NCBI RefSeq assembly: GCF_006475605.1
Contig: NZ_SSBC01000010.1
Location: 1-64,000 of the forward strand
Length of the DNA stretch: 64,000 bases
Source: Asticcacaulis tiandongensis
Lineage (GTDB): Bacteria; Pseudomonadota; Alphaproteobacteria; Caulobacterales; Caulobacteraceae
Reading direction: 5' to 3'
In this document: positions 547 through 18,570 of the stretch, in pieces
How the letters are laid out: each line of letters starts with the position of its first letter
Position numbering within the stretch: the first letter of the stretch is position 1
Position numbers and translations under genes: made by a program
The notes under the pieces: model-generated
The model's database searches: none
The model's input: only the letters and a program-made list of their open reading frames with translations
What the model was told of the DNA's origin: nothing

Positions 547-648
547 TTTTCTAACTCCTGAGTATGGGGCTGCGAAATAACTGAATCTCAGGATGCAAAT
601 TTTCAATTGGTAAGTGGCAGACAGGTGTTATCGGGTTTGGCTTAAATT

Positions 649-665
649 CATATCATATTGGAATG
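649..665 (+). promoter_or_regulatory. Candidate island operator, site 1 (weak)
   Basis: CATATCATATTGGAATG matches the left half of the recurring island dyad CATATCAA-n-TTGATATG, but its right half is degraded. It lies in the 328-bp gap between the small YodC-like gene and the solute-binding protein gene. The rest of that gap is AT-rich, including CTTAATTAAG near 744-753, and has no supportable gene. Confidence 0.35.
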
Positions 666-823
666 TTAACGAAGTTTTATAAAGCTAGGAAAGAATAGTT
701 GGGCTAATTTCAGACTAGAGAATTAATTGAGCGTTAGCACATGCTTAATTAAGTATATGATTTAAATGAAAAATATGTTCAAACTTACGCCGAGCGTGAT
801 CGCAGGGATTGGTGAGTAGTTTA

Positions 824-840
824 CATATCAAATTGATATG
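824..840 (+). promoter_or_regulatory. Candidate island operator, site 2 (perfect dyad)
   Basis: CATATCAAATTGATATG is a perfect 8-1-8 palindrome centred at 832, ending 34 bp before the start codon of the solute-binding protein gene. It is the best example of a motif found in most promoter gaps of the island. The binding protein is inferred to be the Rrf2 regulator at 16384-16815. Confidence 0.6.
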
Positions 841-874
841 ATAATCCATGGGGTGCGCTGCTTATGGAGTTATC

Positions 875-2467
875 ATGCTGTCACGTCGATCCCTTCTTGC
901 CCTGTTTCCCCTCACGGCTGCCGGAACCTTGCTGGCCTCTTGCGGCAGGCCACCTGCGAACGGTAACGGCGCGTCAAAGACGCTCACGGCAACAATCGGC
1001 TACCCTGAACCGCACACGATTTTTGCACCGGGCGGCGGTGGCGGTGGGCCTGGCTTTTCCGGCTCCAAGGTGCTGGAACGTCTGGTACGATATAATGCCG
1101 ATCAGAGCTTTACCCCTATTTTGGCTGAAAGCTGGGCTCTGGCGGATGACGCCAGATCGGTGGCAATCAAACTGCGCGCTAATGTTAAGTGGCACGACGG
1201 TCAGCCGTTCACTTCAGACGATGTGGTGTGGACGGTGACGGAGTACTGGAAGCCGTTTTTCCCGCAGACCATTCTCGATTTCCTGAGTGGCGTTGAAGCG
1301 ACGGGGACGCATGAGGTCACGGTCCATTTTGACCGGCCCGTACCGGAATTTAGCGTTGGCTATCTGTTTGGTGATCTGACGAACTACATTTTGCCTAAAC
1401 ACCTGTATGCGGGAACCGATATCCTGCTCAATCCGGTCAATAATGCACCGGTGGGTACAGGCCCATGGAAATTTTCGAAATGGGTGCGGGGCTCGTTTGC
1501 CGAATTCGTGCGCAATCCCGACTATTGGGTGGCCGGTCAGCCGAGGCTCGACAAGCTTATTATCCGCTGGTGGCGTGAGCCGGCGTCGCGTGCGGCGGCT
1601 TTTGAGACCGGAGAACTGGATGTCGGCGTCTCCAATCCGGCACCACTTGGGGACATCGAACGGCTGAAGGCCAATCCAAATCTGAACGTTCAGTTTGAGG
1701 ATCAGGGTGCGCCTCTGGGGCTTCATTTCAACACGAAAAATCCGGTTGTATCTGATGTGCGGGTTCGCCGCGCCCTGTTACATGCCATTGATCGGGAGTT
1801 TATCGCCAGGACGGTCTATTATGGTCTGGCCAAGCCCGCGATCAGTCCGATTCTGTCGACCAATAAGCTATATTTCAATCCGGATGTCCCGACCTACGTC
1901 TTTGATCCGGCGCTGGCCGGACGCTTGCTTGATGAGGCCGGCTATTCCAAAAAAGCTGATGGCAAGCGCTTTACGCTCAGTTTGCTGGCATCGGGATGGT
2001 CGGAGGAAAATGGCAAGGCGGGGGCTTATCTGAAACAGGTCTTTGAGGATCTGGGCATCCCGACCACGCTTAAGGTGCCGGACCGGGCCAATTCACTGAA
2101 AGCGCTTTATACGGATTATGATTTTGACGTGGCCTATAGTCAGGGTGGTGGCACCTATAATGATCCCATCCCCGATCTGCCGTTGGTGTTTGGAACCGCA
2201 GGCATCAGCAAGGGGCTGATTTTCCGTAACAGTTCACGCTATTCCAATCCGAAGCTTGATGCCTTGTTCGATCGGATAAAGCAGGAAACCGATACTATAA
2301 GACGTAAGGCTGACATCGATCAGGTGGCGCGCATTATTCTTGAGGACGCGCCGCTGGTGCCGCTGATCGAATGGCCGACGCATATTATCGCTCAGAAAAC
2401 GGTACATTTCGATTCCCCTGCCGCGCAGATTGCGGCGGATTCATGGGGCGATGTGTGGAAGGATTAA
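875..2467 (+). CDS. Extracytoplasmic solute-binding lipoprotein (SBP family 5)
   Basis: This 530-residue protein is of the DppA/OppA/GsiB type (SBP_bac_5) and should deliver a peptide-like or glutathione-like ligand to the ABC importer encoded at 6.2-10.1 kb. The N-terminus carries twin arginines (SRRSLL) and a lipobox LASC with the lipid-anchoring Cys at residue 23. Family blocks such as KWHDGQPFTSDDVVWT and GTGPWKF are present. The start at 875 is chosen because GGAG precedes it and it directly begins the signal peptide; an upstream in-frame Met would add nine residues. The mature protein has no Met at all, and the lipobox Cys is its only Cys, fitting expression under sulfur starvation. A palindromic operator lies 34 bp upstream. 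Confidence 0.9.
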   Translation: MLSRRSLLALFPLTAAGTLLASCGRPPANGNGASKTLTATIGYPEPHTIFAPGGGGGGPGFSGSKVLERLVRYNADQSFTPILAESWALADDARSVAIKLRANVKWHDGQPFTSDDVVWTVTEYWKPFFPQTILDFLSGVEATGTHEVTVHFDRPVPEFSVGYLFGDLTNYILPKHLYAGTDILLNPVNNAPVGTGPWKFSKWVRGSFAEFVRNPDYWVAGQPRLDKLIIRWWREPASRAAAFETGELDVGVSNPAPLGDIERLKANPNLNVQFEDQGAPLGLHFNTKNPVVSDVRVRRALLHAIDREFIARTVYYGLAKPAISPILSTNKLYFNPDVPTYVFDPALAGRLLDEAGYSKKADGKRFTLSLLASGWSEENGKAGAYLKQVFEDLGIPTTLKVPDRANSLKALYTDYDFDVAYSQGGGTYNDPIPDLPLVFGTAGISKGLIFRNSSRYSNPKLDALFDRIKQETDTIRRKADIDQVARIILEDAPLVPLIEWPTHIIAQKTVHFDSPAAQIAADSWGDVWKD

Positions 2468-2581: not shown

Positions 2582-2598
2582 TAAACTAATTTGATAGG
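2582..2598 (-). promoter_or_regulatory. Candidate island operator, site 4
   Basis: Read on the minus strand the site is CCTATCAAATTAGTTTA. It keeps the TATCAAATT core of the island motif, and its plus-strand flank TTGATAGGAAATAA is repeated almost exactly before the DszB-like gene (near 16866). It lies 218 bp upstream of the TonB receptor start. Confidence 0.4.
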
Positions 2599-2641
2599 AA
2601 ATAATGCGTTCCGACTACGCGTTTGCGCTTTCATTTTAATT

Positions 2642-2658
2642 CATATCAATTAAATATG
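2642..2658 (+). promoter_or_regulatory. Candidate island operator, site 3
   Basis: CATATCAATTAAATATG shares both outer arms (CATAT and ATATG) and most central bases with the perfect dyad at 824-840, and both are followed by AT-rich sequence beginning AT. It sits 158 bp upstream of the TonB-dependent receptor start. Confidence 0.5.
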
Positions 2659-2816
2659 ATTATGGAATTGATTTGAGGCTCTGGCCTCCGGTCGAGAGTG
2701 TTCAAACACATCAAAGTGCCTGAAGGGCGCGTCCGATTGTTCCTCCCCACAATTTGCACATAACGTCCGGCGCAGATTCCGCAGAGAACGCACGCCGGTT
2801 TCCATTGGAGAAAAGT

Positions 2817-5021
2817 ATGAAACGGGCTGTTCAATCCCGCTGGGCGGGTTCGACCGCGCTTACCCTGAGTCTGGCCATCGGCCTGTCTGTTCTGACGCAA
2901 GGTGTATCTGTCGCCAACGCAACGGATGATGCCGGTGCTGTAGCGGATGCCGAAGAGATTCAGGAGGTGGTTGTCACCGCTGAATTCCGTCGCGCCAGTC
3001 TTCAGAAAACGCCGATTGCCATTACGGTCGTGACACCCGAAGTGCTTGAGCTGCGGGCGATTGAAAATTTGCGTGATGTGGTGACGCGTGTGCCGGGTCT
3101 GGCGGCACCGGTCGCGCTTCAGCATTCGCAGACCAGCTATTATATTCGCGGGGTGGGGGAATCGGATTCGATCGCCAATCAGACGGTCGGCACCTATGTC
3201 GATGATGTCTATATCTCGCGGCCCATTGGCGGCACCTTCGAACTGAATGATGTTGAGGATATTCAGGTACTAAGGGGGCCTCAGGGCACGCTCTATGGCC
3301 GTAACTCGTCAGCGGGTGCCATTAAGGTGACGACGCGGTTGCCTGATAACGAACTCAGAACCTTTCTGGAAATCGGTGGCGGCAACTATTCGGCCAATAT
3401 CCTGCGGGCCGGCATTTCGGGCCCGATAATCAAGGATAAGCTGGCGGCCAGTATCTCTTACATACACCGCGAGCGTCAGGGCTTTGTCTATAACGTGACT
3501 AACAAGCAATATGTCGGTGATGTGCAGACGGACTCTATACGCTTCAAGCTGAACTATAATGTGACTGACAGGCTGGCTTTGCTGTTTGCTGCTGACTATT
3601 TTGAAGATAATGGCGATCCGACACCGAAGCAAAGCCGTCTTCAGCCCGGCGGCGTGATCGACAAGGGCGTGAACTATTCAGACGTTCTGATCAGCAACAA
3701 GACGGAACTGGGCGGGGTGTCGTTACGGGCAACCTACCAGCTTAATGAAAATACTGTCCTCAAATCGATTACCTCGACGCGCGCCTTTAAGCAGCCGGGA
3801 TGGTACGATCAGGACGGCAGCGCCACCACCATCAACAAGACCTTTTCCAACCACCGCAACGAGAACTGGGCGCAGGAATTCCAGTATCTCTATAGCGGTG
3901 AGCGCCTGCATGTCGTCGGTGGCCTGTTCTTCCTGTTTGATAATTTCCGCTCCTATCGCACGGGCTATTCTCCCAATGCGACCCATGCGCTTTTGCCCTA
4001 TCGCAGTGAATTCCTTCATGAGCGTATGACGCTTCAGGATTCGGGCGAAAAGACAAAGAACCAGTCGGTGTACGGTCAGCTGACCTATCAGTGGACGCCG
4101 TCTATAGAGGTGATTGTCGGGGGACGCTATACCTCAGAGCAGCATGACTTTACCTTTACCGGCGATGAACGCAACGCTGGCGGCCAGTATCTGCCGGTGC
4201 CCTACACTATACGTCGTGACTATAAGACATGGACGTCCTTTACGCCCAAGGTAGGGATAAACTGGCAGGCTTCTGAGCGTATTGCCGCCTATCTTACCTG
4301 GTCCAAGGGCTTCAAGGCGGGCGGTTTTGACGGGCGCGCCAACTCCAAGGAAGCTGCAGGCCTGCCTTATGATCCTGAATATGTTGTGGCCATTGAAGGC
4401 GGTGTAAAGGCTGATTTCTTCAATCGCACCCTGCGCACCAATCTGGCGATCTTCCATAATGAGGTTGAAGGCTATCAGGCGACGGCGCGGGATGAAAACG
4501 ACGTCAGCCACCGTATCAATCTGGGCGAGGTGGAAACCAGAGGTTTCGAGCTTGAGACCACCTGGCGACCATTGAGCGGCCTGACCTGGCTTTATAATGT
4601 CAGCTATCTCGACTCCGAAGTGCTGACGGCAGGCGGGGCGGCGTCGAACACGGCGACCTTTGTCGGCAAGCAGGTTCAGAATGCACCGAAATGGTCGCAC
4701 TTCCTGTCGGTGGATTATGTGCTGCCGATCACCACGTTCGGCCAGTATCGTTTAGGGGCGGAATATATCCAGCGTTCCAAATATTATACCGATGGCCCGA
4801 ATACCGAAAGCGCTGCGGCCGAAGCGGTTGATCTCGTCAACCTGTCGGCCAGTTTTGTGCCGGAGAATGCGCAGAACTGGCGGGTATCGCTCACGGTACG
4901 TAACCTGCTTGATGAACAATATGATACGGGCGGCGCGAGAGGCAATGGCGTGACCTCGCTCAACGCCACCACCTATTCCGATCCGCGCACATGGTTTGTC
5001 CGTCTGCGCTACGCCTACTGA
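2817..5021 (+). CDS. TonB-dependent outer-membrane receptor
   Basis: This 734-residue receptor has a signal peptide (cleavage probably near residue 36), a TonB box around residues 47-55 (EIQEVVVTA), a plug domain with the LRGPQGTLYGRNSSAG block, and a 22-strand-type barrel ending in aromatic residues (WFVRLRYAY). Such receptors import scarce substrates across the outer membrane using TonB energy. Its position between the binding protein and the ABC importer suggests it carries the same sulfur compound; the substrate is inference. The start follows GGAG at 2807-2810. Only two Met and no Cys occur in 734 residues, an extreme sulfur-sparing composition. A terminator follows at 5032-5070. Confidence 0.93.
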   Translation: MKRAVQSRWAGSTALTLSLAIGLSVLTQGVSVANATDDAGAVADAEEIQEVVVTAEFRRASLQKTPIAITVVTPEVLELRAIENLRDVVTRVPGLAAPVALQHSQTSYYIRGVGESDSIANQTVGTYVDDVYISRPIGGTFELNDVEDIQVLRGPQGTLYGRNSSAGAIKVTTRLPDNELRTFLEIGGGNYSANILRAGISGPIIKDKLAASISYIHRERQGFVYNVTNKQYVGDVQTDSIRFKLNYNVTDRLALLFAADYFEDNGDPTPKQSRLQPGGVIDKGVNYSDVLISNKTELGGVSLRATYQLNENTVLKSITSTRAFKQPGWYDQDGSATTINKTFSNHRNENWAQEFQYLYSGERLHVVGGLFFLFDNFRSYRTGYSPNATHALLPYRSEFLHERMTLQDSGEKTKNQSVYGQLTYQWTPSIEVIVGGRYTSEQHDFTFTGDERNAGGQYLPVPYTIRRDYKTWTSFTPKVGINWQASERIAAYLTWSKGFKAGGFDGRANSKEAAGLPYDPEYVVAIEGGVKADFFNRTLRTNLAIFHNEVEGYQATARDENDVSHRINLGEVETRGFELETTWRPLSGLTWLYNVSYLDSEVLTAGGAASNTATFVGKQVQNAPKWSHFLSVDYVLPITTFGQYRLGAEYIQRSKYYTDGPNTESAAAEAVDLVNLSASFVPENAQNWRVSLTVRNLLDEQYDTGGARGNGVTSLNATTYSDPRTWFVRLRYAY

Positions 5022-5031: not shown

Positions 5032-5070
5032 AAGCCGCGCAGAGTTTAGTCTCATGCGCGGCTTAATTCA
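5032..5070 (+). terminator. Terminator after the TonB receptor gene
   Basis: AAGCCGCGC (5032-5040) pairs with GCGCGGCTT (5056-5064) around a 15-nt loop, with As before and AATT after. It separates the receptor gene from the next transcription unit and abuts the operator at 5069. Confidence 0.7.
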
Positions 5071-5085
5071 TATTAAATCGATAGA
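5069..5085 (+). promoter_or_regulatory. Candidate island operator, site 5
   Basis: CATATTAAATCGATAGA matches the island motif CATATCAAATTGATATG at 13 of 17 positions. It lies 71 bp before the aldo/keto reductase that opens the ABC-importer operon. Confidence 0.4.
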
Positions 5086-5156: not shown

Positions 5157-6188
5157 ATGAAATATGTTAATCTCGGACCGACCGGCACCAAGGTGTCACG
5201 CATCGCCTTCGGTTGCTCAAGCTATGGTTCGACCGACTGGATGCCGTGGGCGTTGCCTGAGTCCGAAGCGCTGCCGTTTTATAAAAAGGCCCTCGATCTG
5301 GGCATTAATTTTTTCGACAATGCCGATTCCTATTCCACAGGTTTGGCAGAAACCATTCATGGCAATGCCTTTGAGGCCCTTGGGGTGCGACGTGACGAGG
5401 TGGTTATCGCCACCAAGGTTTATGGCGCGATGGGCAAGGATGTGAACCAGCGCGGATTATCGCGCAAGCACATCCGTCATGCGGTTGAGGACAGCCTGCG
5501 TCGTCTGAAGACCGATTATATCGATCTGTACCAGATTCATCGTCTCGATACGACAACGCCGCCTGAGGAAATTCTTGAGGCGCTGCACGACCTCATTAAG
5601 GCCGGCAAGGTTCTGCATATCGGGGCCTCAAGCATGTATGCCTGGCAGTTCGCCAAGCTTCAGCATCTTGCCGAAGTGCATGGCTTTACCAAATTCGTCA
5701 CCATGCAGAACCGTTACAACCTCCTTTATCGTGAGGAAGAGCGGGAAATGATCCCCCTGTGCATCGATCAGGGTGTGGGCGTCATCCCCTATAGCCCGCT
5801 GGCGCGCGGTCTTTTGACCGGTTCACGCCGCCGCGGCACGGAACGTTCCAAGGTGGTTAAGGACTTTGCCCGTCCCGAAGACGAGGCTGTCATTGACCGT
5901 GTCCTCGAAGTGGCCCAAGCGCGTGGCGTTCCGGCGGCGCAGATCGGTCTGGCCTGGCTTCTGACACGACCGGGCCTTACGGCACCTATTGTCGGTGCCA
6001 CCAAGCCACATCACCTTGAGGATGCCGTGGCGGCGGTTGATCTGGTGCTGACGGATGAGGAAATCGGCCTGCTTGAGGCTCCCTATAAGGCGCAGCCGCC
6101 CCAGTTCGGGCGGGAAACTGTCGCTTCGCACAATATTGCCGCCAATGCCGCTTTTGCCGCTGCTCAGGGTGCAGAGGCCGGAATCTGA
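5157..6188 (+). CDS. Aldo/keto reductase (first gene of importer operon)
   Basis: This 343-residue NAD(P)H-dependent oxidoreductase has a TIM-barrel fold and resembles the YajO/IolS/Tas branch of the AKR superfamily. Catalytic-tetrad motifs are visible: FFDNADSYSTG (Asp and Tyr), IATKVYG (Lys) and LYQIHRLD (His). The C-terminal cofactor segment contains PIVGATKPHHLED. It opens an operon that continues, with 10-bp or shorter gaps and overlaps, through the ABC importer, tautomerase and MFS genes. It could reduce an aldehyde or ketone released when a C-S bond is broken; that role is inference. Unlike its neighbours it is not clearly Met-poor (6 Met, 2 Cys). Confidence 0.85.
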   Translation: MKYVNLGPTGTKVSRIAFGCSSYGSTDWMPWALPESEALPFYKKALDLGINFFDNADSYSTGLAETIHGNAFEALGVRRDEVVIATKVYGAMGKDVNQRGLSRKHIRHAVEDSLRRLKTDYIDLYQIHRLDTTTPPEEILEALHDLIKAGKVLHIGASSMYAWQFAKLQHLAEVHGFTKFVTMQNRYNLLYREEEREMIPLCIDQGVGVIPYSPLARGLLTGSRRRGTERSKVVKDFARPEDEAVIDRVLEVAQARGVPAAQIGLAWLLTRPGLTAPIVGATKPHHLEDAVAAVDLVLTDEEIGLLEAPYKAQPPQFGRETVASHNIAANAAFAAAQGAEAGI

Positions 6189-6198: not shown

Positions 6199-7263
6199 AT
6201 GGCATCCCACCGCATTCTTCCGAGTCCCTTTTCCGATCCACTGCGTTTTGACGGCGCGGTCAGGACGAAGGTCACCTCCCGCCCGGTGATTCTGCTGAGG
6301 CGGCTTGTAGTGCGGTTGGTAACCCACGTCCTGCCGCTGATGCTGGCGATTATTACCGGCACCTTCTTTCTCATCCATTCGGCACCGGGCAGTTTCGTCG
6401 AGATCATGTCATCGGAAATGCAGGTGTCGGATCAGGCGATGATTGATCGCCTCAGCGTGACCTATGGGCTCGATCAGCCGCTTTGGGTGCAATATCTCAA
6501 ATACCTCAAGGCTGTAGCGCAGTTCGATCTCGGTTTCTCATACCGGCAAAACCTGCCGGTAATTGAAGCGGTTCTTCATCATCTTCCGGCGACACTGTTG
6601 CTAATGATTTCGGGTATTCTGGTGGCCCTTGTCGCCGGCGTATCCGCAGGGGCCGTAGCGGCGTCGCGGCCCAACAGTTTTATTGATCGCGCCCTGTCGA
6701 TGACGGGGGTATTCCTGTTTGCCGCGCCGGGGTTCTGGCTCGGGATCATGCTGATTGTCCTGTTCGGCGTGACGCTTGGCTGGCTGCCGATAGGTGACAT
6801 GAGAACTATCGGAGCCGATTACGGGTTTTTCGGTAATCTGCTTGATGTCGGATATCATCTTCTGCTGCCAGCTCTGGCCATGGGCCTGCATCAGTCGGCA
6901 ATCTATCTGCGGGTGACGCGCACGGCCATGCTTCAGGCGGCGACGGCAGATTACGTTAAGACGGCACGTGCCAAAGGGCTGTCCGAAGGTACGGTGATTC
7001 TGCGCCATATTTTCCGCAATGCCCTGTTGCCCATTGTGACGGTGCTGGGATTACAATTTGCCTCCGTGCTGTCGGGGTCGGTCGTGATTGAGGCTGTGTT
7101 TAACTGGCCCGGTATCGGCAGCCTGCTATATGACGCCGTTGTGGCCCGCGATTATCCGATGGTTCTGGGCATCATCATCCTCAGTTCGCTGGTCGTCATT
7201 ACGGTCAATCTGGTGGTCGATCTTGTCTATGCGTGGCTCGATCCGCGCATCGTGCTGGAGTAG
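6199..7263 (+). CDS. ABC importer permease, DppB/GsiC type
   Basis: This 354-residue inner-membrane permease is of the peptide/nickel/glutathione importer family. After a cytosolic N-terminus of about 45 residues come six hydrophobic segments. The EAA-type loop that contacts the ATPases reads VKTARAKGLSEGTVILRHI, and FNWPGIGSLLYDAV near the C-terminus is typical of DppB. A longer frame begins inside the preceding reductase gene. The start at 6199 is preferred because it follows the reductase stop by 10 bp and has a GAGG site. It should form a heterodimer with the product of the next gene. It has 12 Met, so the sulfur-sparing bias does not extend to the membrane subunits. Confidence 0.92.
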   Translation: MASHRILPSPFSDPLRFDGAVRTKVTSRPVILLRRLVVRLVTHVLPLMLAIITGTFFLIHSAPGSFVEIMSSEMQVSDQAMIDRLSVTYGLDQPLWVQYLKYLKAVAQFDLGFSYRQNLPVIEAVLHHLPATLLLMISGILVALVAGVSAGAVAASRPNSFIDRALSMTGVFLFAAPGFWLGIMLIVLFGVTLGWLPIGDMRTIGADYGFFGNLLDVGYHLLLPALAMGLHQSAIYLRVTRTAMLQAATADYVKTARAKGLSEGTVILRHIFRNALLPIVTVLGLQFASVLSGSVVIEAVFNWPGIGSLLYDAVVARDYPMVLGIIILSSLVVITVNLVVDLVYAWLDPRIVLE

Positions 7264-7267: not shown

Positions 7268-8095
7268 ATGACCGATGTCTTTCTTCGTTTCACGCAAAAC
7301 CGGCTGGCGACCGCAGGTCTGGCTATCCTTGGGCTGATCGGATTAATTGCCCTGTCTGCACCGCTTCTGTTTCCCGGTGACCCCTTACGGATTGTGGCAC
7401 CGGCGCTCCAGCCGCCCCTGACGGACGGATACCCTTTCGGCACGGATGCGCTGGGGCGGGATATGCTGGCCATGATCGTTCATGGTACGCGGACAACACT
7501 TCTGATCGGTGTGGCCGCCGCGACGACGGCCATACTGATCGGCGTCACCATAGGGGCGCTGGCGGGCTATTATGGCGGCGTGATCGGTAGTCTGGCGGGG
7601 CGTCTGATCGAATTGTTTCAGACCATTCCCGGCCTTGTCTTTTTGCTGGCTATTGTTTCGTTCGTAGGGCCACAGCTTATCTTTGTGGTGCTTGCCATAG
7701 GTATCGTCTCATGGGAATCGATTGCCCGCCTGACACGCGCTGAGTTTCTCGCCTGGCGCAAACGGGATTTTGTGCTGGCCGGACGGGCCATGGGCATGAC
7801 TGACGCCCGCCTGATCTTTGGCGAAATCCTCCCCAATGCCATAGCGCCGGTCATCGCCGTGTCTACCCTGTCTATTGCCGGTGCCATTCTGGTGGAGTCA
7901 GGCCTGTCGTTTCTCGGGCTGGGCGATCCGTCGGTTTCCACATGGGGGCGGTTGGTGGGCGAGGGGCGGGGCCTGATCCGTACGGCCTGGTATGTCTGCG
8001 CCATTCCCGGCGCCGCCATTGTCCTGACGGTCTTCGCCTTAAGTCTGGTTAGCGATGGCCTGAATGATGTCCTGAATCCGGGGAGCCGCAGATGA
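7268..8095 (+). CDS. ABC importer permease, DppC/GsiD type
   Basis: This 275-residue second permease is of the DppC family. The N-terminal segment FTQNRLATAGLAILGLIGL is the first membrane helix, followed by the periplasmic loop ending HPFGTDALGRD-like in form (here YPFGTDALGRDML). The EAA loop reads VLAGRAMGMTDARLIFGEI, and the ending LNDVLNPGSRR matches the family's conserved tail. The ATG at 7268 lies 4 bp after the previous stop. Its last four bases overlap the start of the first ATPase gene, so the importer subunits are translationally coupled. Confidence 0.92.
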   Translation: MTDVFLRFTQNRLATAGLAILGLIGLIALSAPLLFPGDPLRIVAPALQPPLTDGYPFGTDALGRDMLAMIVHGTRTTLLIGVAAATTAILIGVTIGALAGYYGGVIGSLAGRLIELFQTIPGLVFLLAIVSFVGPQLIFVVLAIGIVSWESIARLTRAEFLAWRKRDFVLAGRAMGMTDARLIFGEILPNAIAPVIAVSTLSIAGAILVESGLSFLGLGDPSVSTWGRLVGEGRGLIRTAWYVCAIPGAAIVLTVFALSLVSDGLNDVLNPGSRR

Positions 8096-9093
8096 ATGCG
8101 CAAACCTTTGCGGTGGATACGCCCTTTATCGAGGCACGCGGCCTGACGACCTCTGTGCGTACCAAACGCGGCGAAGTGCCGATTGTCACCGGCTTTGATC
8201 TGTCTGTCCGGCGCGGCGAGACGGTGGCCATTGTCGGGGAATCCGGTTGTGGCAAGTCGCTGGCGGCTCTGTCCTTGATGCAGCTTTTGCCCAAGGGGCG
8301 CGCCCGTGTTAGTGGGGGCGAAGTGCGCCTTGACGGGCGCGATATACTGACGCTTAAGGCCCGTGAACTGAATGCCCTGCGCGGGCGGGAGATCGCCCTG
8401 ATCTCACAGGACCCTATGAGCGCGCTCAATCCGGTCATATCCATAGGCGCACAGCTCCGCGAAGCCATCACCGCCCATAGCGACCTGAAAGGTGAGGCCC
8501 TGCACGCCCGTGCCATTGAGCTTATGCGGCTGGTGCAAATTCCTGATCCCGAAGCCCGTCTCAGGGAATATCCGCACCGCTTGTCGGGTGGTATGTGCCA
8601 GCGGGTTAGTATCGCCATGGCCATCGCCTCACAACCGCGCCTTCTGATCGCCGATGAACCGACGACGGCGCTTGATGTCACCATTCAGGCGCAGGTGCTG
8701 CAACTGCTGCAACGGCTAAAGCGCGAAACCGGCATGGCTTTGCTGATTATCACCCATGATTTTGGTGTGGTAGCGGAAATGGCCGACCGCGTGGCGGTGA
8801 TGTATGCCGGACGCATTGTTGAGGAGGGGCCGGTGCGTGAGATTTTTCGCAACCCGCGCCATCCCTATACGCAGGGCCTTCTGGCACTTACCCGTCATCA
8901 CCCACGTGGGATGCGCCTGCCTGAGATTGCCGGTCTGGTGCCCGCCTATGGTGAGGCGCGGACGGGCTGCGCTTTTGCCGACCGCTGCCCGCAGGCTCGG
9001 GCCATTTGCCGCCAGCTAACGCCTGAGCGCCGTTCTGTCGGCCCCTTGCATGACACGGCCTGCTGGCTGACGGAAACCGGAGAGGTCGCATGA
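8092..9093 (+). CDS. ABC importer ATPase, DppD/GsiA-N type
   Basis: This 333-residue ATPase powers the importer. Visible motifs are Walker A GESGCGKS (about residues 46-53), a Q-loop ISQDPMSALNP, the signature LSGGMCQRV, Walker B LLIADEPTTALD, and the H-loop ITHDFG. The C-terminal oligopeptide domain includes CAFADRCPQARAIC, a Cys cluster found in DppD-type subunits. It overlaps the upstream permease and the downstream ATPase by ATGA. Confidence 0.95.
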   Translation: MNAQTFAVDTPFIEARGLTTSVRTKRGEVPIVTGFDLSVRRGETVAIVGESGCGKSLAALSLMQLLPKGRARVSGGEVRLDGRDILTLKARELNALRGREIALISQDPMSALNPVISIGAQLREAITAHSDLKGEALHARAIELMRLVQIPDPEARLREYPHRLSGGMCQRVSIAMAIASQPRLLIADEPTTALDVTIQAQVLQLLQRLKRETGMALLIITHDFGVVAEMADRVAVMYAGRIVEEGPVREIFRNPRHPYTQGLLALTRHHPRGMRLPEIAGLVPAYGEARTGCAFADRCPQARAICRQLTPERRSVGPLHDTACWLTETGEVA

Positions 9094-10426: not shown

Positions 10427-11736
10427 TGTCCGCTTCAGGCGGTGCGGAACCGGACGCGCGGTCCTCCGGTCGCACCGACGCCTTTGCCGCCTTCCGCTCA
10501 CGTGATTTCCGCTGGTTCTATCTGGCGCGGATGTCCAATAATCTTGGCACCAATATCATGCTGCCGACGCTTGGCTGGCAGATATATGCCATGACGCGTG
10601 ACCCGATGGCACTCGGGCTGGTCGGTGTGGCGGTCTTCGTGCCGACGCTGCTGGCGACCTTGCCCTCTGGTCAGGCGGCTGACCGGTTTGAGCGTCGCAA
10701 TGTTTACCGGCTGTTTCAGCTGGTACTCATGATGTCGGCTCTGTCTTTTGTTGCCCTGACCATTAAGGGTGTGACCTCGCCGGTGCCATTTTATCTGGCG
10801 GCGGCCATTTTCGGTGTGGGAAAAACCTTCTCGGCTCCGTGTGCGCAGGCGTGGATGCCGCACCTCATGCCGCGTCAGGATTTTCCCAATGCCGTGGCGT
10901 GGAACTCATCGGCCTTTCAACTGGCGGGCATAGTGGGGCCGTCGGTGGCGGGTCTGATTATCTTTCTGGCCAACGAAGCCACCGCCTATGGCGTGGCTGC
11001 AGGATTTTATGTCGGCTCGTTTGTGCTGGCGACACTGGTGCGCACCCGCAGCAAGGGTAATGACCAGCATAATAAGGGACTGGCGCACCTTTTGGGCGGG
11101 ATTACCTATATCGGTCGCCACCCCCTTATCCTTGGGGCAACGACAATGGATCTGTTTGCCGGATTGCTTGGTGGGGCCACGGCGCTTTTGCCGATTTTCG
11201 CCACCGAAATCCTCCATGTCGGGGAAGCCGGTTTCGGTGTCTTGCGCAGCGCCTCGGCGGTAGGGGCCGTGGCGGCGGCGACCTTTATGGCCTTTCGGCC
11301 CATGCACCGGCGGGTCGGTCGCTGGATGTTCGTGGCGCTGGCCTGTTTTGGCCTGTCGATCATCGTCTTTGGGCTGTCGTCTTCTTATATTCTGTCGATC
11401 ATTGCCCTGACGGTAATGGGCGGGGCGCGCATGACCGGGGCCTGTATCCGTCAGTCGCTGGTGCAGCTATCGACGCCGGATGATATGCGCGGGCGGGTCA
11501 GTTCGGCCAATATGGTCTTTGGCAGTGCCGCCAATGAACTGGGGGATATGGAGGCGGGTTTTGTCGCCTCGTTTGTCGGTGCTGCACCGGCGGCTGTCAT
11601 CGGCGGGGCAGGCGTTCTGGCGGTCGGCGGGATATGGTTTTTCCTGTTCCCGTCGCTAAGGGGTATTGACCGTATTGATGATGGCGCGCCTCATGCAAAG
11701 ACAAAGGACACGGGCTCTCTGAAAGAGGCAGCATGA
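10426..11736 (+). CDS. MFS transporter (EntS/MFS_3 type)
   Basis: This 436-residue major facilitator protein has about 12 hydrophobic segments. An initial cytosolic stretch is followed by FRWFYLARMSNNLGTNIM and the loop motif GQAADRFERRNV after the second helix. The MFS_3 group includes the enterobactin exporter EntS and other efflux proteins. Its start overlaps the tautomerase stop by one base, so it is the last gene of the importer operon, followed by a terminator. Export of a desulfurised carbon skeleton or a toxic by-product is a plausible role, but the sequence does not show it. Confidence 0.85.
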   Translation: MSASGGAEPDARSSGRTDAFAAFRSRDFRWFYLARMSNNLGTNIMLPTLGWQIYAMTRDPMALGLVGVAVFVPTLLATLPSGQAADRFERRNVYRLFQLVLMMSALSFVALTIKGVTSPVPFYLAAAIFGVGKTFSAPCAQAWMPHLMPRQDFPNAVAWNSSAFQLAGIVGPSVAGLIIFLANEATAYGVAAGFYVGSFVLATLVRTRSKGNDQHNKGLAHLLGGITYIGRHPLILGATTMDLFAGLLGGATALLPIFATEILHVGEAGFGVLRSASAVGAVAAATFMAFRPMHRRVGRWMFVALACFGLSIIVFGLSSSYILSIIALTVMGGARMTGACIRQSLVQLSTPDDMRGRVSSANMVFGSAANELGDMEAGFVASFVGAAPAAVIGGAGVLAVGGIWFFLFPSLRGIDRIDDGAPHAKTKDTGSLKEAA

Positions 11737-11783: not shown

Positions 11784-12755
<972 letters not shown>

Positions 12756-12787
12756 AGTTTTGCTTCTCCAATAAGTCAGTTTAAATC

Positions 12788-12804
12788 ATATTGACTTGAT
12801 ATGG
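12788..12804 (-). promoter_or_regulatory. Candidate island operator, site 6 (divergent promoters)
   Basis: On the minus strand the site is CATATCAAGTCAATATG, matching 14 of 17 positions of the perfect dyad at 824-840, with both outer arms intact. It lies 32 bp from the reductase start and about 125 bp from the monooxygenase start, so one site could control both divergent units. Confidence 0.55.
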
Positions 12805-12929
12805 ATTGAGGATTAGCACAGTCACATAAACGGAACAAGCGGCCTTTGTGTCCCCGTTCCCATTTAGAGGTTTAGCCGTCAACGGCACGCCGCTTTCTTC
12901 CCCTCATCCTCATTTCGCGGTGCTTATCC

Positions 12930-14084
12930 ATGACCACTAAGCCTTTGCACTTTGGTTTCACCTACACCCCTCACGGCGCGCATCCGGGAGCCTGGCGTCA
13001 CCCGGATAGCCGGCATGATCCGTTTGATCCGGCCCAAATTACCGCCCAGACGCAAGCGGTTGAGGCGGCGGGTTTCACCTTCATACGGTTTCAGGATCAA
13101 CTGGCTCCTGAAGCCAGGGCTGCGGCCCATGCGCCGGAGGCTCTGGCGCGTACCGAAGCCTTTACGACGGCATCGTTTCTGGCGACGCGCACAAAGCGTC
13201 TGGGGTTTGTGGTCACGGGCAATACCAGCTATTTCGAGCCGTTCAATCTGGCGCGTCTGACGGCATCGCTTGATCATGTGACACACGGTCGCGCAGGCTG
13301 GGAACTGACGAGCGGGGCTTCCTATCCGGCGGCGCGTAACTACAGCCAGACCGAAGCCACGCCTGAGGTGCATTACGCCCGTGCCGCCGAGGTTTTGGAT
13401 ATCCTGCGCAAGCTGTGGGATTCATGGGAAGATGACGCCTTCATCCGTAACAAGGCCACCGGCGAATATGTTGATGGCGACCGGATTCATCCGATACATC
13501 ACGAGGGTGAGCGCTTCCGTATCAAGGGGCCGCTCAATGTCGCCCGTCCGCCGCAGGGTCAGGTGGTGGTGGCCCATGAAATCACGTCTGATCTGTCCTA
13601 TGCTATCGCGGCGCAGGCCGATCTTGTTTTTCTCGGAAGCCATGCGCCCGCCGAAATTCGTAACCGCGCCGATGCAATGCGCGAAGCGGTAAAGGCGGCT
13701 GGCCGCGCAGCAGACAGCGTACGCCTGTTTGCGGATGTCATACCCGTGCTTGCCGCTACGCCAGAGGCCGCCAAAGCGCTTTTGGCCGACCTTAATGCGC
13801 GGGCAGGCCAATCGGCAGACGGATATGTCATCGCGGGTGACGCGAAACAGATTGCCGACCAGATCGAAGCCCTGGCCGAAACCGGTGGCGTGAACGGCAT
13901 CAATATCCGTTCGCCGCTCCTGCCAACGCAGCTTGAGGCTTTCGTCGAGCTTGTTGTGCCGGAACTCAAGGCGCGCGGTCTTTGGGCCGAGCCGAAGGAC
14001 GGGGCGACCTTGCGCGACCATCTGGGCCTTGATCGTCCTGCCAACCGTTTAACGACCCGCGCCGACCTCAAGGCGGCAGTATAG
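12930..14084 (+). CDS. FMN-dependent monooxygenase (NtaA/SnaA/DszA family), short form
   Basis: This 384-residue class C flavin-dependent monooxygenase has a luciferase-like TIM barrel. Family blocks visible are HPGAWRHP near residue 20, TASLDHVTHGRAGWELTSG (about 111-129) and LDILRKLWDSWEDDAF. The end LRDHLGLDRP is shared with NtaA, SnaA and DszA. Such enzymes use reduced FMN from a separate reductase, here probably the product of 17971-18570, to oxidise the substrate beside a C-S or C-N bond. It is about 70 residues shorter than typical DszA. It has only two Met and no Cys. It heads an operon with a second monooxygenase (9-bp gap) and a rhodanese. Confidence 0.88.
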   Translation: MTTKPLHFGFTYTPHGAHPGAWRHPDSRHDPFDPAQITAQTQAVEAAGFTFIRFQDQLAPEARAAAHAPEALARTEAFTTASFLATRTKRLGFVVTGNTSYFEPFNLARLTASLDHVTHGRAGWELTSGASYPAARNYSQTEATPEVHYARAAEVLDILRKLWDSWEDDAFIRNKATGEYVDGDRIHPIHHEGERFRIKGPLNVARPPQGQVVVAHEITSDLSYAIAAQADLVFLGSHAPAEIRNRADAMREAVKAAGRAADSVRLFADVIPVLAATPEAAKALLADLNARAGQSADGYVIAGDAKQIADQIEALAETGGVNGINIRSPLLPTQLEAFVELVVPELKARGLWAEPKDGATLRDHLGLDRPANRLTTRADLKAAV

Positions 14085-14093: not shown

Positions 14094-15485
14094 ATGTCCA
14101 ACCGTCAGCTTCATTTCGGCCTCATGTTCTGGGCCAATGGCACCCATCCGTCGGGATGGCGTATGCCGACCGCGCATGAAACCGCGCCTTTCGATATAGA
14201 ATTCCTGCAAAAGGTGACGCAAATCGCCGAAGGGGCTAAATTCGATTTCCTGTTCCTTGGGGATCGTCTGGCGTCCGATCCGGCCTTGCAGACGACCAAT
14301 CCGTCGCAGATGTCGCGCCTTGAACCGTTTGTGTCGGCGGCGTCGCTGGCGGCGGCGACAAGTCATATCGGCATAGTGGTGACGGCAAACCCGACCTATT
14401 ATGACCCGTATAATATTGCGCACCTTACCGCGTCGCTTGATCACCTGAGCGGTGGACGGGCTTCGTGGAATCTGGTGACCGGTGCCGATGAAATCGCTGC
14501 CGCCAATTTCAGTCGCGATGAACACTGGGACACCGAAAAGCGTTATGACTGGGCCGATGAATTTGTCGAGGTGACGCGCAAGCTGTGGGATTCGTGGGAT
14601 GAGGACGCCTATGACGCCGATCCGGTTTCAGGTGCACGGGCGATCAACCATCAGGGTCGCTTCTTCAATATTAACGGCCCTCTGGCGGTCAAACGCCCTC
14701 CACAGGGGCATATCGTCATTCTGCACGCCGGCACCTCTGACCGCTCACGTGAGCTGGGCGCACGCGATGCCGATGTGATCTTTGCCGCAGGACCGAACAT
14801 TCCGGCGGCTAAGGCCTATTACGATGATATCAAGGCACGGGCGAAAAAACATGGTCGTTCCGCAGACGATATTGCCATCCTGCCCGGTATGACGCCGATT
14901 GTAGCGCCGACGACCGCAGAGGCCGTGAAAATTTACGATCAGCTCAACAGTTTCATCCAGATCGACTCCGAAGATACCGCTGAAGAACATCGTCGGTATG
15001 GGGCGCTGGGGGGGCGGGGCAAGCGGAACCTGTCGAACGTCACCCGCACCATAGGCGTTGACGTGATCGGGCGCGGCGTAGATGAGGTGGTCGATCCGCT
15101 GGTGCTGAAAGAAGCCAATGAAGACGGCCAAAAGTTGTTTGCCCAGATTACCGAGCGGACACGCCGTGATGTAACGGGGGCTAATCGCATCACCTATCGT
15201 GATCTGATCATTGCCGCTGCCGGTCAGGGCGGCGGTGTTGTCGGCAATCCGAAAGAGGTCGCTGATCATATCGAGCACTGGTTCGAAGCCAGGGCCTGTG
15301 ATGGTTTCAACATTTTCCCCGCCTATAATCCGGATACGGTATCCGCCTTTGCTGATCTGGTCGTGCCGATCCTTCAGAATCGCGGTCTTTACCGCCGTGA
15401 CTATTCCGGCCCGACTTTCCGTGATCATCTGGGCCTCAAACGTCCGGCCAACAGCCTGACCCGCACCGTCGTTGCAGCTGAATAG
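14094..15485 (+). CDS. FMN-dependent monooxygenase (NtaA/SnaA/DszA family), full length
   Basis: This 463-residue second luciferase-like monooxygenase is the usual length of NtaA/DszA enzymes. Visible blocks: HPSGWRMP, TASLDHLSGGRASWNLVTG, ADEFVEVTRKLWDSWDEDAY, KRPPQGHIVILHAGTSDRSR and the terminal TFRDHLGLKRPANSL. Having two paralogues in tandem resembles multi-step organosulfur oxidation, but the substrate cannot be read from sequence. It carries five Met and one Cys, again low for its size. It is co-transcribed with the preceding monooxygenase and the rhodanese gene. Confidence 0.9.
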   Translation: MSNRQLHFGLMFWANGTHPSGWRMPTAHETAPFDIEFLQKVTQIAEGAKFDFLFLGDRLASDPALQTTNPSQMSRLEPFVSAASLAAATSHIGIVVTANPTYYDPYNIAHLTASLDHLSGGRASWNLVTGADEIAAANFSRDEHWDTEKRYDWADEFVEVTRKLWDSWDEDAYDADPVSGARAINHQGRFFNINGPLAVKRPPQGHIVILHAGTSDRSRELGARDADVIFAAGPNIPAAKAYYDDIKARAKKHGRSADDIAILPGMTPIVAPTTAEAVKIYDQLNSFIQIDSEDTAEEHRRYGALGGRGKRNLSNVTRTIGVDVIGRGVDEVVDPLVLKEANEDGQKLFAQITERTRRDVTGANRITYRDLIIAAAGQGGGVVGNPKEVADHIEHWFEARACDGFNIFPAYNPDTVSAFADLVVPILQNRGLYRRDYSGPTFRDHLGLKRPANSLTRTVVAAE

Positions 15486-16383: not shown

Positions 16384-16815
16384 ATGATTTCTCAACGCTG
16401 CCGCTATGCACTTAAGGCTATGATCAATCTGGCACGTCAGGATACGGTCGTGCCAAAGCAGGTGGCTGTGATATCGGCCGAGGAGACCATTCCGCGCAAG
16501 TTTCTTGAGGGGATCATGTCCGAACTGCGTCAGGGCGGATTTGTCGAAGCCCTGCGCGGTAAGACGGGCGGTTACCGGTTGGCGCGTCCGGCAGAACTGA
16601 TTACCTTCGGCGAGATCATGCGCGTGGTCGATGGGCCGCTGGCGCTTTTGCCCTGTGTCAGCCAGCATTTCTATAAACGGTGCGAGGATTGCCGTGACGA
16701 AAAGGCCTGTGAACTGCGGCGCATCATGGCCCGTGTCCGTCGCGAAGCCTCGGACGTTCTTGATCGTACAACACTTGGTGACGCGGTGAGTCAACCGCAA
16801 CTTGGCATAGTTTAG
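16384..16815 (+). CDS. Rrf2-family regulator with four-Cys sensor loop
   Basis: This 143-residue winged-helix repressor is of the Rrf2 family (CymR, IscR, NsrR relatives). The N-terminal HTH includes IPRKFLEGIMSELRQGGFVEALRGKTGGYRLAR in family form (only partly quoted as key: KTGGYRLA at 60-67). The sensor loop holds Cys91, Cys100, Cys103 and Cys109 (C-x8-C-x2-C-x5-C), able in principle to bind an Fe-S cluster or report thiol state. It lies inside the sulfur island between the rhodanese and the DszB-like gene, so it is the natural candidate regulator. A weak half-site CATATGGGATTG at 16345-16356 precedes it, suggesting possible autoregulation. Confidence 0.88.
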   Translation: MISQRCRYALKAMINLARQDTVVPKQVAVISAEETIPRKFLEGIMSELRQGGFVEALRGKTGGYRLARPAELITFGEIMRVVDGPLALLPCVSQHFYKRCEDCRDEKACELRRIMARVRREASDVLDRTTLGDAVSQPQLGIV

Positions 16816-16856: not shown

Positions 16857-16873
16857 CAGACTTAATTGATAGG
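16857..16873 (-). promoter_or_regulatory. Candidate island operator, site 7
   Basis: On the minus strand the site is CCTATCAATTAAGTCTG. It shares TATCAATTAA with the site at 2642-2658 and lies 28 bp before the DszB-like start. The plus-strand stretch TTGATAGGAAATAA is also found at 2591-2604 before the receptor gene. Confidence 0.45.
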
Positions 16874-16901
16874 AAATAAAACAGTTTCAAGGATAACTGT
16901 G

Positions 16902-17960
16902 ATGACCTATCATTCGACCATTCCGCTGGTGCCTTCGGATACGCTCTGGTTCTACAGCGGGCCGGTGCCTACCGCGACATCCCTTGCCCATAGGCAGGAT
17001 TTTCTGGGAAAATATACCCAAGGTACCGGCTTTCAGCTGAAACCCCTGAAAGAGGCGCGGGATGTGACCTTGCGCGCCCAGCATTTCCACCATGACATCA
17101 AGACACTGGTACGCGAAGGCGGGAACGTGTTCCCGATTTTTAACCGGGCGCGTAATCTGGCACAGCGCGGATATGATAATACGGTTGTCATCGGCCTGAC
17201 CTGGGTCGATGAGGTGCAGGTGCTTCTGGCGCGTCCCGGTCTCGGATTTGACGGGCAGGGTATAGGTGCACTGAAAGGCAAGCGACTGGGCCTGTCCCAT
17301 ACCCCTGCCGAGGTTGATGTCTGGCAGGCCATGGCCCTGCGGGGCTTTGACACCGCGCTGAAACTGGCCGGTCTTACGTTTGAGGATGTTATCTTAAGCC
17401 GGATAAAAGGGCCTGATCTGCGCTTTCAGCCCTACGCCCGGCGCGGGGATAATGGCTCGCGTGTCACCGAAGAGGCGCTGTTGCGCGGCGAGATCGATGT
17501 CATCTATGCCCGTGGTGCGGCGGCGATACAGCTTCAGCAGGCGCATAATCTTGAGGTGGTTCTCGATATCAACGCGCTGGATGATCCGAAATTGCGCGTC
17601 AACAACGGCACGCCCCGTCTGCTCACTGTGCATCGGCATTTGCTTGATGATCATCCGGATCTTGTGACACGCTATCTGAAGGCCTTGAGAGTGGCAGGGC
17701 AATGGGCGTCGGAACATCCCCGCGAAGTGGTCGAGATTCTGGCCGAAGACACCGATTCCACACCAGAAAGTGTCCGGCGTGGCTACGGCCCCAGGCTGGA
17801 ACATATTTTTGATATCAAGCTCAATTCGGCGCGGGTGGCCGCCTTGCAGGATCAGGTCGATTTTCTGCACAGGTTCGGGCTGATTGAGATCCGCTTCGAT
17901 GTCGGCGCATGGATTAATACATCGCCGCTGGTTCAGTCGAGTCTACTTCGTGACCATTGA
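16902..17960 (+). CDS. DszB-like sulfinate desulfinase homologue lacking the catalytic Cys
   Basis: This 352-residue protein has a periplasmic-binding-protein fold but no signal peptide, so it should be cytosolic. It resembles DszB, the 2'-hydroxybiphenyl-2-sulfinate desulfinase, as recalled from memory. FYSGPVPTA (17-25) aligns with the DszB segment holding Cys27. His61 (QHFHHD) and Arg71 (VREGGN) align with DszB His60 and Arg70 at the identical 10-residue spacing. The position of Cys27 is Gly20 here, and the whole protein has no Cys. It may be a desulfinase with altered chemistry or a cytosolic sulfonate/sulfinate-binding protein. AAGGA lies 8 bp before the start at 16902. It is followed 10 bp later by the FMN reductase gene. 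Confidence 0.7.
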   Translation: MTYHSTIPLVPSDTLWFYSGPVPTATSLAHRQDFLGKYTQGTGFQLKPLKEARDVTLRAQHFHHDIKTLVREGGNVFPIFNRARNLAQRGYDNTVVIGLTWVDEVQVLLARPGLGFDGQGIGALKGKRLGLSHTPAEVDVWQAMALRGFDTALKLAGLTFEDVILSRIKGPDLRFQPYARRGDNGSRVTEEALLRGEIDVIYARGAAAIQLQQAHNLEVVLDINALDDPKLRVNNGTPRLLTVHRHLLDDHPDLVTRYLKALRVAGQWASEHPREVVEILAEDTDSTPESVRRGYGPRLEHIFDIKLNSARVAALQDQVDFLHRFGLIEIRFDVGAWINTSPLVQSSLLRDH

Positions 17961-17970
17961 GAGAAAATCT

Positions 17971-18570
17971 ATGTCCTTATCTTACGCTCGCCACACGGCG
18001 CCGGTTATCGTTGGTTTTGGCGGTGCCCTGAGCCAGGATTCACAAACCGAGCGTCTGCTTAAAACAGTACTCGATGAGGCGGCGCAGTTGGGGGCGCGTA
18101 CCCGCCTTTTTAGCGGACGTGATCTGGCGGCCCTGCCGCACTATGATCCGGTCGATCCCTGTCGCACCCCCGCGCAGGAAGCCTTTCTGGCGGCCATCAG
18201 GGAAGCGGACGGGGTCGTTATCGCCACCCCGACCTATCATGGGGGCATTACGGGGCTGGTCAAAAATGCCATCGATCTGATTTCAGACCTGCGTACCGAT
18301 GCGCGTCCCTATCTCGATGGCCGTCCGGTGGGCATTGTGGTGACCGCCGGTGGCGGTCAGGGGGCAGGGGCAACCCTCTCAGGGGTGCGCGATATTGTAC
18401 ACGCCCTGAGAGGCTGGCCAACGCCGATAGGGGTTGCCGTCAACAATCCGGTTATTTTCGACGAACAGGGCCAGATACTGAGCAACTCGCTGAAAGAAGC
18501 CATTCGGACGCAGGCGCGTCAGATGGTAGAGTTTCATCTGCTGCATAAACAGCGTAGTTTCGCCGAATAG
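17971..18570 (+). CDS. NADPH-dependent FMN reductase
   Basis: This 199-residue flavodoxin-fold reductase is of the SsuE/MsuE/NADPH_FMN_red type. ATPTYHGGITGLVKNAIDLISDL in family form (key part TPTYHGGITGLVKN) is the FMN-binding and dimer loop, and the later Gly-rich VVTAGGGQGAGATL is also typical. It should supply reduced FMN to the two luciferase-like monooxygenases, as SsuE does for SsuD. A longer frame overlaps the DszB-like gene. The start at 17971 is preferred because it lies 10 bp after that stop and begins at the family N-terminus. It has two Met and one Cys. It is the last gene of the island on the plus strand. Confidence 0.88.
   Translation: MSLSYARHTAPVIVGFGGALSQDSQTERLLKTVLDEAAQLGARTRLFSGRDLAALPHYDPVDPCRTPAQEAFLAAIREADGVVIATPTYHGGITGLVKNAIDLISDLRTDARPYLDGRPVGIVVTAGGGQGAGATLSGVRDIVHALRGWPTPIGVAVNNPVIFDEQGQILSNSLKEAIRTQARQMVEFHLLHKQRSFAE

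Follow-up and report, generated by a model that had tools for sequence, protein, structure and literature searches.

Two-component flavin monooxygenases and ATP-binding cassette (ABC) importers occur together in the SsuABCDE and sfn systems, as they do in the locus described here, a set of 16 genes at positions 848-18570 of a 64,000-nucleotide stretch of Asticcacaulis tiandongensis (NCBI RefSeq assembly GCF_006475605.1, contig NZ_SSBC01000010.1, positions 1 to 64,000; hereafter the window). All genes of this island lie on the plus strand except that of aldo/keto reductase 2 (AKR2; 11784-12755). They encode an SBP_bac_5 binding lipoprotein (SBP), a TonB-dependent receptor, a Dpp-type ABC importer, two aldo/keto reductases (AKR1 and AKR2), a tautomerase, a major facilitator superfamily (MFS) transporter, two NtaA/DmoA-family flavin monooxygenases (LLM1 and LLM2), a rhodanese, an Rrf2-family regulator, a DszB-fold protein and a flavin mononucleotide (FMN) reductase (Table 1). 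Compared with SsuABCDE and sfn, the island has another monooxygenase subfamily, another importer class and an outer-membrane receptor. We read it, with a probability of roughly 0.75, as a sulfur-starvation scavenging island for an organosulfur compound, because several of its proteins are poor in Cys and Met, an operator-like motif is shared by its promoters, a DszB-like paralogue and a remote TonB receptor, and its modules are conserved in other genomes.

Four other described systems share parts of this inventory. The Dsz (4S) system of Rhodococcus likewise has a DszA-family FMNH2 monooxygenase, the DszB fold, a separate flavin reductase and sulfur-poor proteins (according to passages of PMC8557817), whereas the island has no DszC among its genes, has a DszB-like protein without Cys27, and adds a TonB receptor, a Dpp importer, a rhodanese, aldo/keto reductases and an Rrf2 regulator. 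The yxe/scm (YxeK) and Cmo systems of Bacillus also combine a TIGR03860-type monooxygenase with an organosulfur importer; the island differs in its Dpp-type importer and in having no acetyltransferase or deacetylase among its genes. A Sinorhizobium/Ensifer plasmid cluster (loci L009 and L007) has SBP5, DppBCDF, aldo/keto reductase, DszB-like proteins and an NtaA/DmoA-type monooxygenase at 25-56% identity; over the stretch compared, TonB, MFS and rhodanese gave no matches at E<=1e-8, and the three of its DszB-like proteins that were aligned keep the Cys, unlike that of the island. CymR-CysK likewise sets an Rrf2 regulator beside a protein with a sulfur-enzyme fold; the island's Rrf2 protein, by comparison, falls under the CymR cut-off and has four clustered Cys, and its neighbor has the DszB fold. 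Literature searches for the gene combination gave only a paper on benzothiophene in Gordonia, and nothing was found on organosulfur in Asticcacaulis or on "DszB-like" with sulfur.

Sulfur-poor proteins of the island

Cys+Met content, computed without the initiator Met, was compared with that of 36 open reading frames (ORFs) of the window and 130 ORFs of other host loci, the latter picked partly for motif matches and not for composition (medians 2.5 and 2.7, respectively). The TonB receptor contains 0.14% Cys+Met (734 aa, no Cys and one internal Met) and the SBP 0.19% (530 aa, one Cys and no internal Met), followed by LLM1 (0.26%), AKR2 (0.31%), the rhodanese (0.38%; one Cys, no internal Met) and the DszB-like protein (0.57%), while the tautomerase has none (0%) and the FMN reductase and LLM2 stand at 1.0-1.1%. 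The 16 island proteins differed from the background with p=0.003, and eight island enzymes from the 166 ORFs with a Mann-Whitney p of 1.6e-5. When 142 host ORFs from the loci compared, each 250 aa or longer, were ranked, the lowest seven were a TonB receptor encoded at C10:571434-573854 (L180:7435-9855) and then the island's TonB, LLM1, AKR2, rhodanese, SBP and DszB-like proteins. This remote receptor, which was located through the motif described below and whose composition was looked at afterwards, has 806 aa and zero Cys or Met after the initiator; five other TonB-like host ORFs in the loci compared range from 1.55 to 2.80%.

A similar composition was found in G775, a genome of another genus of the same family, where the eight orthologues measured contain 0.27-1.75% Cys+Met, except the MFS transporter (3.18%), and 22 flanking ORFs have a median of 2.5%. 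SBP5 homologues in the other loci compared are less poor (median 0.39, with 6% as low as the island SBP), and 13 of 14 rhodanese matches there are richer in Cys+Met than the island rhodanese. Passages of PMC8557817 describe the proteins raised in sulfate-free dibenzothiophene culture of Rhodococcus IGTS8 as poor in Cys and Met.

An operator-like motif in island promoters

The exact palindrome CATATN7ATATG occurs three times in the window, at 824, 2642 and 12787, against 0.03 expected, and none of 100 shuffles reached three, the counts not being blind because the palindrome and a wider motif were written after the island promoters had been seen. All three copies lie in island promoters. Genome-wide, the wider motif is found with 0 mismatches only at 2636, 5063 and 12781, the sites used to write it, and with up to three mismatches it has 41 matches in the host genome versus 23 for a reversed control. 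One of these, with 1 mismatch (C16:288113), lies 52-72 bp upstream of the ATG of a DszB-like paralogue (C16:288185-289243), the only other DszB-like gene in the host genome at E<=1e-10; another, with 2 mismatches (C10:571134), lies 300 bp upstream of the nearly sulfur-free remote TonB receptor; a third, with 1 mismatch (C19:3715), precedes a TonB-like gene at C19:3954. Two further 2-mismatch sites (C10:1310320 and C15:217965) stand between genes that, by eye, have no evident sulfur role. The motif offers a means of finding further members of the putative regulon. A 1-mismatch site (C16:118841-118861, L181) also precedes, by about 170 bp, the gene of a zinc alcohol dehydrogenase that on visual inspection resembles glutathione-dependent formaldehyde dehydrogenase.

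Conservation of gene order in other genomes

In G775, 13 genes from SBP to rhodanese, 61-85% identical to those of the island, keep both their order and their orientation relative to one another. The Rrf2, DszB-like and FMN reductase genes are absent from the G775 stretch compared (DszB-like genes elsewhere in that genome were not searched for) and are found together as a trio in another Asticcacaulis genome, G680 (Rrf2 42%, DszB-like 53% and FMN reductase 62% identity), where the last two frames overlap. The G680 trio is preceded by genes matching LLM monooxygenases and an ABC ATPase, by eye a sulfonate-type cluster, and its further neighbors resemble, again on visual inspection, cysteine dioxygenase, rhodanese, TonB and TauD proteins. 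Judged from gene order, the island is thus two modules joined, an SBP-rhodanese block and an Rrf2/DszB-like/FMN reductase trio. Conserved order in other genomes, which a sequence-only reading of the window had proposed to look for, was present in the 13 collinear genes of G775 and the trio of G680. In the gene list of the same reading, one correction is that AKR2 lies on the minus strand, divergent from LLM1. That reading had further seen a self-contained island carrying transport, oxidation and regulation of its own for sulfur scavenging; the Cys/Met depletion, the operator-like palindromes and the motif-linked DszB-like and TonB genes support scavenging with these functions, whereas "self-contained" was wrong, because the motif also marks genes outside the island and the island is made up of two modules.

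The arrangement is rare. An LLM2 orthologue was found in 2 of 249 sampled genomes of the family at E<=1e-90, namely, the host and G775 (85% identity), in 1 of 398 genomes of the order at E<=1e-110 (the host) and in 1 of 101 genomes of G775's genus at E<=1e-100; at E<=1e-30, 6 of the 25 host-genus genomes matched, including the host, the other five at 38-43%. Since the only two matches to LLM2 in the host genome at E<=1e-30 are the adjacent LLM1 and LLM2 and 13 of the 16 genes are ordered alike in another genus, the island is more than a chance proximity of genes. On plasmids (17 matching records), relatives of the rhodanese adjoin SBP5/DppBC genes in 8 of the 13 loci examined, and only two of these 13 also have an LLM match, one being the Ti plasmid of Agrobacterium larrymoorei, on which an NtaA/DmoA gene adjoins the rhodanese gene. 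Two rhodanese-relative loci (L139 and L148) were seen to contain a VOC protein and a SUMF1/EgtB-type enzyme besides SBP5/Dpp genes.

Flavin monooxygenases and their reductases

LLM1 and LLM2 both pass the curated cut-off (279.7 bits) of TIGR03860, the family of NtaA/DmoA/DszA-type FMN monooxygenases, with 305 and 412 bits, and score 34 and 78.5 bits against the SsuD cut-off of 518 and 41 and 81 bits against the SfnG cut-off of 383. About 80 internal residues of LLM2 have no equivalent in LLM1, and the G775 counterpart of LLM1 is likewise shortened. That the same oxygenase pair is accompanied by different flavin reductases in the two genera, a PF03358 FMN reductase in the host and a PF01613 protein in G775, supports the assignment of LLM1 and LLM2 as a two-component flavin monooxygenase system. 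The closest solved relative of LLM1 is 3sdo, deposited as a nitrilotriacetate monooxygenase, and those of LLM2 in the PDB are YtnJ/MoxC first and DszA second. Among plasmid relatives of LLM2 (38-40% identity), three loci were inspected out of seven records; two of them, L134 and L135, have amino-acid ABC transporter and MmgE/PrpD genes, which we take to resemble yxe-type loci, and the third does not.

The relationship to YtnJ/MoxC and the gene content of L134 and L135 speak for a variant of S-alkyl-cysteine or S-(2-succino)cysteine salvage (YxeK or CmoJ/CmoO type) that would import peptide-bound or glutathione-derived conjugates. The products would also suit it, the aldehyde released by CmoJ and the oxaloacetate released by YxeK (passages of PMC10863075 and PMC9706529) being possible substrates of the aldo/keto reductases and the tautomerase. 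We nevertheless consider this salvage unlikely. No N-acetyltransferase, deacetylase, peptidase or gamma-glutamyltransferase occurs among the 16 assigned genes, so that glutathione and cysteine conjugates are mildly disfavored, and whereas a yxe/scm locus is defined, in a passage of PMC9706529, by at least three of YxeK, L, MNO, P and Q, the island has only a YxeK-family monooxygenase.

A DszB-fold protein without its nucleophile

The DszB-fold protein matches DszB best (phmmer, 7e-6), and its structural model (pLDDT 90.5) finds the DszB structures 2de3/2de2 as top Foldseek matches (TM 0.72-0.77). In DszB, passages of PMC12168087 report, Cys27 acts on a sulfinate held by His60 and Arg70. An alignment of 152 DszB-like rows, not all of them independent (at least 280 aligned residues, split reading frames excluded, window protein and DszB included), shows Cys at position 27 in 124 rows, Ser in 27 and Gly in one, the window protein alone, while Arg70 is present in 152/152; the window protein retains both Arg70 and His60. 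The label "DszB-like" given by the sequence-only reading therefore stands for the fold (TM about 0.75 to DszB, the best Foldseek match) and fails at the catalytic Cys, which is Gly. A DszB-type desulfination step was accordingly rejected, such a reaction being unlikely with the nucleophile missing, and the probable role of the protein is to bind a ligand resembling a sulfinate or sulfonate, not to cleave it by the DszB mechanism. The same substitution bears on a true Dsz-type 4S pathway for thiophene desulfurization: although DszA-family monooxygenases, the DszB fold and an FMN reductase are all present, the catalytic Cys is absent and no DszC-type gene is among the genes assigned at 848-18570, and we regard this pathway as very improbable.

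Loss of the nucleophile recurs in this family. Seven Asticcacaulis DszB-like orthologues share 52-54% identity, and six of them keep the Cys; the exception is that of G680, outside the 152 rows, which has Asp at this position. The Gly (host) and Asp (G680) proteins group as sisters, at moderate support (83/73), in a tree in which L024 and one L052 row were trimmed at the wrong anchor and L120 and L127, having no anchor, were dropped. Such homologues, with Gly or Asp in Asticcacaulis and Ser in Pseudomonas, would be labeled desulfinases or ABC binding proteins by family annotation. In Pseudomonas (L034:11045-12136, L035:10870-12108 and similar), the genes of the Ser-bearing proteins follow immediately after the matched DszB-like gene. 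The lone host paralogue (C16:288185-289243, L113), with the motif in its promoter, keeps the Cys and has Tyr for His60.

The Rrf2 regulator and a possible sensor

The island Rrf2 protein scores below the cut-offs of both CymR (79.5 versus 195 bits) and IscR (78.9 versus 207.6), and its four clustered Cys suggest an Fe-S cluster. It is a candidate binder of the palindromic operators. The best motif match in the 18 kb around a 50%-identical Rrf2 gene of G688 sits 32-52 bp upstream of that gene, suggesting autoregulation there; for a 51%-identical Rrf2 gene of G680, the best match is not upstream.

The Cys-less DszB-fold protein might be no pathway enzyme but a ligand sensor or partner of Rrf2, as CysK is for CymR, which passages of PMC3828012 and PMC9338935 offer as precedent. 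Both Asticcacaulis genomes that have lost the Cys carry the DszB-like gene directly downstream of an Rrf2 gene; six of the seven Asticcacaulis orthologues keep the Cys, and Arg70 is invariant in the alignment. On the other hand, the two trio Rrf2 proteins are only 42% identical, that of G680 looks by eye like another Rrf2 subtype, and the Cys-less pair forms a clade of moderate support only, which leaves a sensor possible but doubtful. By analogy, one might go further and see in Rrf2, the DszB-fold protein and the FMN reductase a transferable sulfur-sensing module, the counterpart of CysK-CymR, in which the nucleophile was given up and the ligand-binding Arg and His were kept, and which would report a sulfinate or sulfonate intermediate to an Rrf2 protein controlling scavenging proteins, nearly free of sulfur, across the genome; we hold this as a speculative and rather doubtful idea.

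Proposed scavenging route and its weighing

For a sulfur-scavenging island, we infer induction, motif-binding protein, transport, reaction order and substrate as follows. Under sulfur limitation, a regulator, for which the island Rrf2 is the candidate, would release the palindromic operators; the TonB receptor would bring the organosulfur compound across the outer membrane, and the binding lipoprotein and Dpp-type ABC importer would carry it into the cytoplasm. There, the FMN reductase would supply FMNH2 to one or both NtaA/DszA-family monooxygenases, leading to C-S bond cleavage; the aldo/keto reductases and the tautomerase may dispose of the carbonyl fragment, and the DszB-fold protein would bind its sulfinate- or sulfonate-like ligand. 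The rhodanese may take a sulfane or thiol product; alternatively, sulfite could pass to sulfite reduction in the host. Assimilation of sulfite released by the island is conceivable because the host has two PF01507 proteins, whose neighbors, judged by eye, resemble CysN and sulfite reductase. The island would thus couple a receptor in the outer membrane, an importer of the Dpp type and two DszA-family oxygenases to an apparent single regulon, several members of which are nearly free of Cys and Met, and substrate discovery thereby becomes a defined experiment.

Several observations weigh against this reading or narrow it, beginning with the palindrome counts, which were not blind. AKR1 (2.05% Cys+Met), the permeases, ATPases and MFS transporter (1.8-4.6%) and Rrf2 (6.3%) are not depleted; moreover, since loci elsewhere that are anchored on DszB encode equally poor DszB, LLM2 and TonB homologues (medians 0.60, 0.91 and 0.15), Cys/Met depletion says more about how these families live than about this island. 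When up to one mismatch is allowed, the palindrome is found three times against 1.12 expected, a count reached by 6 of 100 shuffles, and the TonB-like gene at C19:3954, despite the motif upstream, is not sulfur-poor (2.57%). Outside the host, the motif is at best weakly supported. In G775, three of the top five motif matches lie in cluster promoters, which were listed after the first scan, and 12 of 300 column-permuted matrices equaled this; across seven Asticcacaulis/G775 loci, cluster genes are preceded by 7 of 21 top matches (3.9 on average for permuted matrices, 14 of 200 of which do as well), and in six further loci by 2 of 18 (174 of 200 do as well). The Rrf2 homologue of G775 (47%) is encoded away from the cluster. 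None of the 16 island genes is tied to a known sulfur substrate, and, given the two PF01507 proteins, the island need not be the host's only sulfur route. The post hoc palindrome count does not affect the strength of the scavenging reading, because the composition ranking and the site of the paralogue do not rest on that count alone.

TIGR03860 also includes enzymes acting on nitrilotriacetate (NTA), ethylenediaminetetraacetate (EDTA), alkanes and hexachlorobenzene, and the island could accordingly be catabolic, drawing carbon or nitrogen from a non-sulfur compound (a chelate such as NTA/EDTA, an N-heterocycle or a halogenated aromatic), with the rhodanese incidental. The likeness of the tautomerase to malonate semialdehyde decarboxylase fits such a role, as do the ends of the G775 cluster, where a PF01613 flavin reductase adjoins the SBP gene and a nitroreductase adjoins the rhodanese gene, a set reminiscent of the Rut pyrimidine pathway. 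We judge it quite unlikely in view of the Cys/Met depletion, the motif shared with the DszB-like paralogue, the rhodanese and DszB-like genes within the cluster and the position of the G680 trio behind an apparent sulfonate-type cluster.

Gene inventory and surroundings

The importer had been described as peptide/glutathione-type; it is of the Dpp type, and Gsi as a firm label was rejected, the binding protein reaching 91.2 bits against the GsiB equivalog cut-off of 594. The rhodanese resembles 3-mercaptopyruvate sulfurtransferase, whose active-site loop is CG(S/A)GV, with CGAGVS here and CGSGVS in G775, and scores 84.8 bits against 250 for the corresponding equivalog NF008557. Pro2 of the tautomerase is also present in the G775 orthologue.

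Table 1. Genes and operator-like sites of the island (window positions)
Feature	Position	Strand	Remarks
Operator-like site a, upstream of SBP gene	643..663	+	Motif TTWAWTCATATYNNNTNRATA, 3 mismatches
Operator-like palindrome CATATCAAATTGATATG, upstream of SBP gene	824..840	.	Exact CATATN7ATATG
SBP_bac_5 extracytoplasmic binding lipoprotein	875..2467	+	PF00496 2e-84; lipoprotein signal by visual inspection
Operator-like half site upstream of TonB receptor	2584..2604	-	TTATTTCCTATCAAATTAGTT, hand alignment
Operator-like palindrome upstream of TonB receptor	2636..2664	.	0 mismatches; exact palindrome 2642-2658
TonB-dependent receptor	2817..5021	+	NCBIfam siderophore-receptor family 170 bits, under cut-off 223.5
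Operator-like site upstream of AKR1	5063..5083	+	0 mismatches
Aldo/keto reductase 1 (AKR1)	5157..6188	+	PF00248
Dpp-type ABC permease B	6199..7263	+	NCBIfam Opp2B 298 bits, under cut-off 350
Dpp-type ABC permease C	7268..8095	+	NCBIfam Opp4C 235 bits, under cut-off 350
Dpp-type ATPase D	8092..9093	+	Family assignment
Dpp-type ATPase F	9090..10082	+	Family assignment
Tautomerase, N-terminal Pro	10094..10426	+	PF14552; PDB 7tvk malonate semialdehyde decarboxylase 2e-12
MFS transporter	10426..11736	+	NCBIfam EntS 166 bits, H+ antiporter family 152 bits; both under cut-off
Aldo/keto reductase 2 (AKR2)	11784..12755	-	Divergent from monooxygenase 1; 83% to G775 orthologue
Operator-like palindrome, AKR2/LLM1 divergent promoter	12781..12809	.	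0 mismatches; exact palindrome from 12787; weak counterpart in G775
Flavin monooxygenase 1 (LLM1), NtaA/DmoA family	12930..14084	+	TIGR03860 305 bits
Flavin monooxygenase 2 (LLM2), NtaA/DmoA family, full length	14094..15485	+	TIGR03860 412 bits
Two-domain rhodanese, CGAGVS loop	15497..16294	+	Two stretches of PF00581
Rrf2-family regulator, four clustered Cys	16384..16815	+	TIGR00738 113.9 bits, cut-off 73.3
Operator-like half site upstream of DszB-like gene	16859..16879	-	TTATTTCCTATCAATTAAGTC, hand alignment
DszB-fold protein, Gly for catalytic Cys	16902..17960	+	ATG start likely; ORF open from 16866
NAD(P)H:FMN reductase	17968..18570	+	PF03358 3e-28; ORF open from 17884

Family searches recovered every gene class that the sequence-only reading had named at 848-18570 and added the MFS transporter (10426-11736), which had been overlooked. 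The window starts at the contig end, from which the left boundary of the island cannot be judged. Integration at the tRNA-Met gene (50-126) was considered and rejected, no 17-base piece of it being repeated elsewhere in the window or in the next 11 kb, and GC content in 2-kb bins gives no foreign mark (51-60% inside the island, 53-60% outside). Directly past the island, a GXWXG/DUF4334 protein is encoded at 18590-19144; it is matched in 1 of 25 genomes of the genus, the host itself (E<=1e-20), and its gene may be part of the acquired segment.

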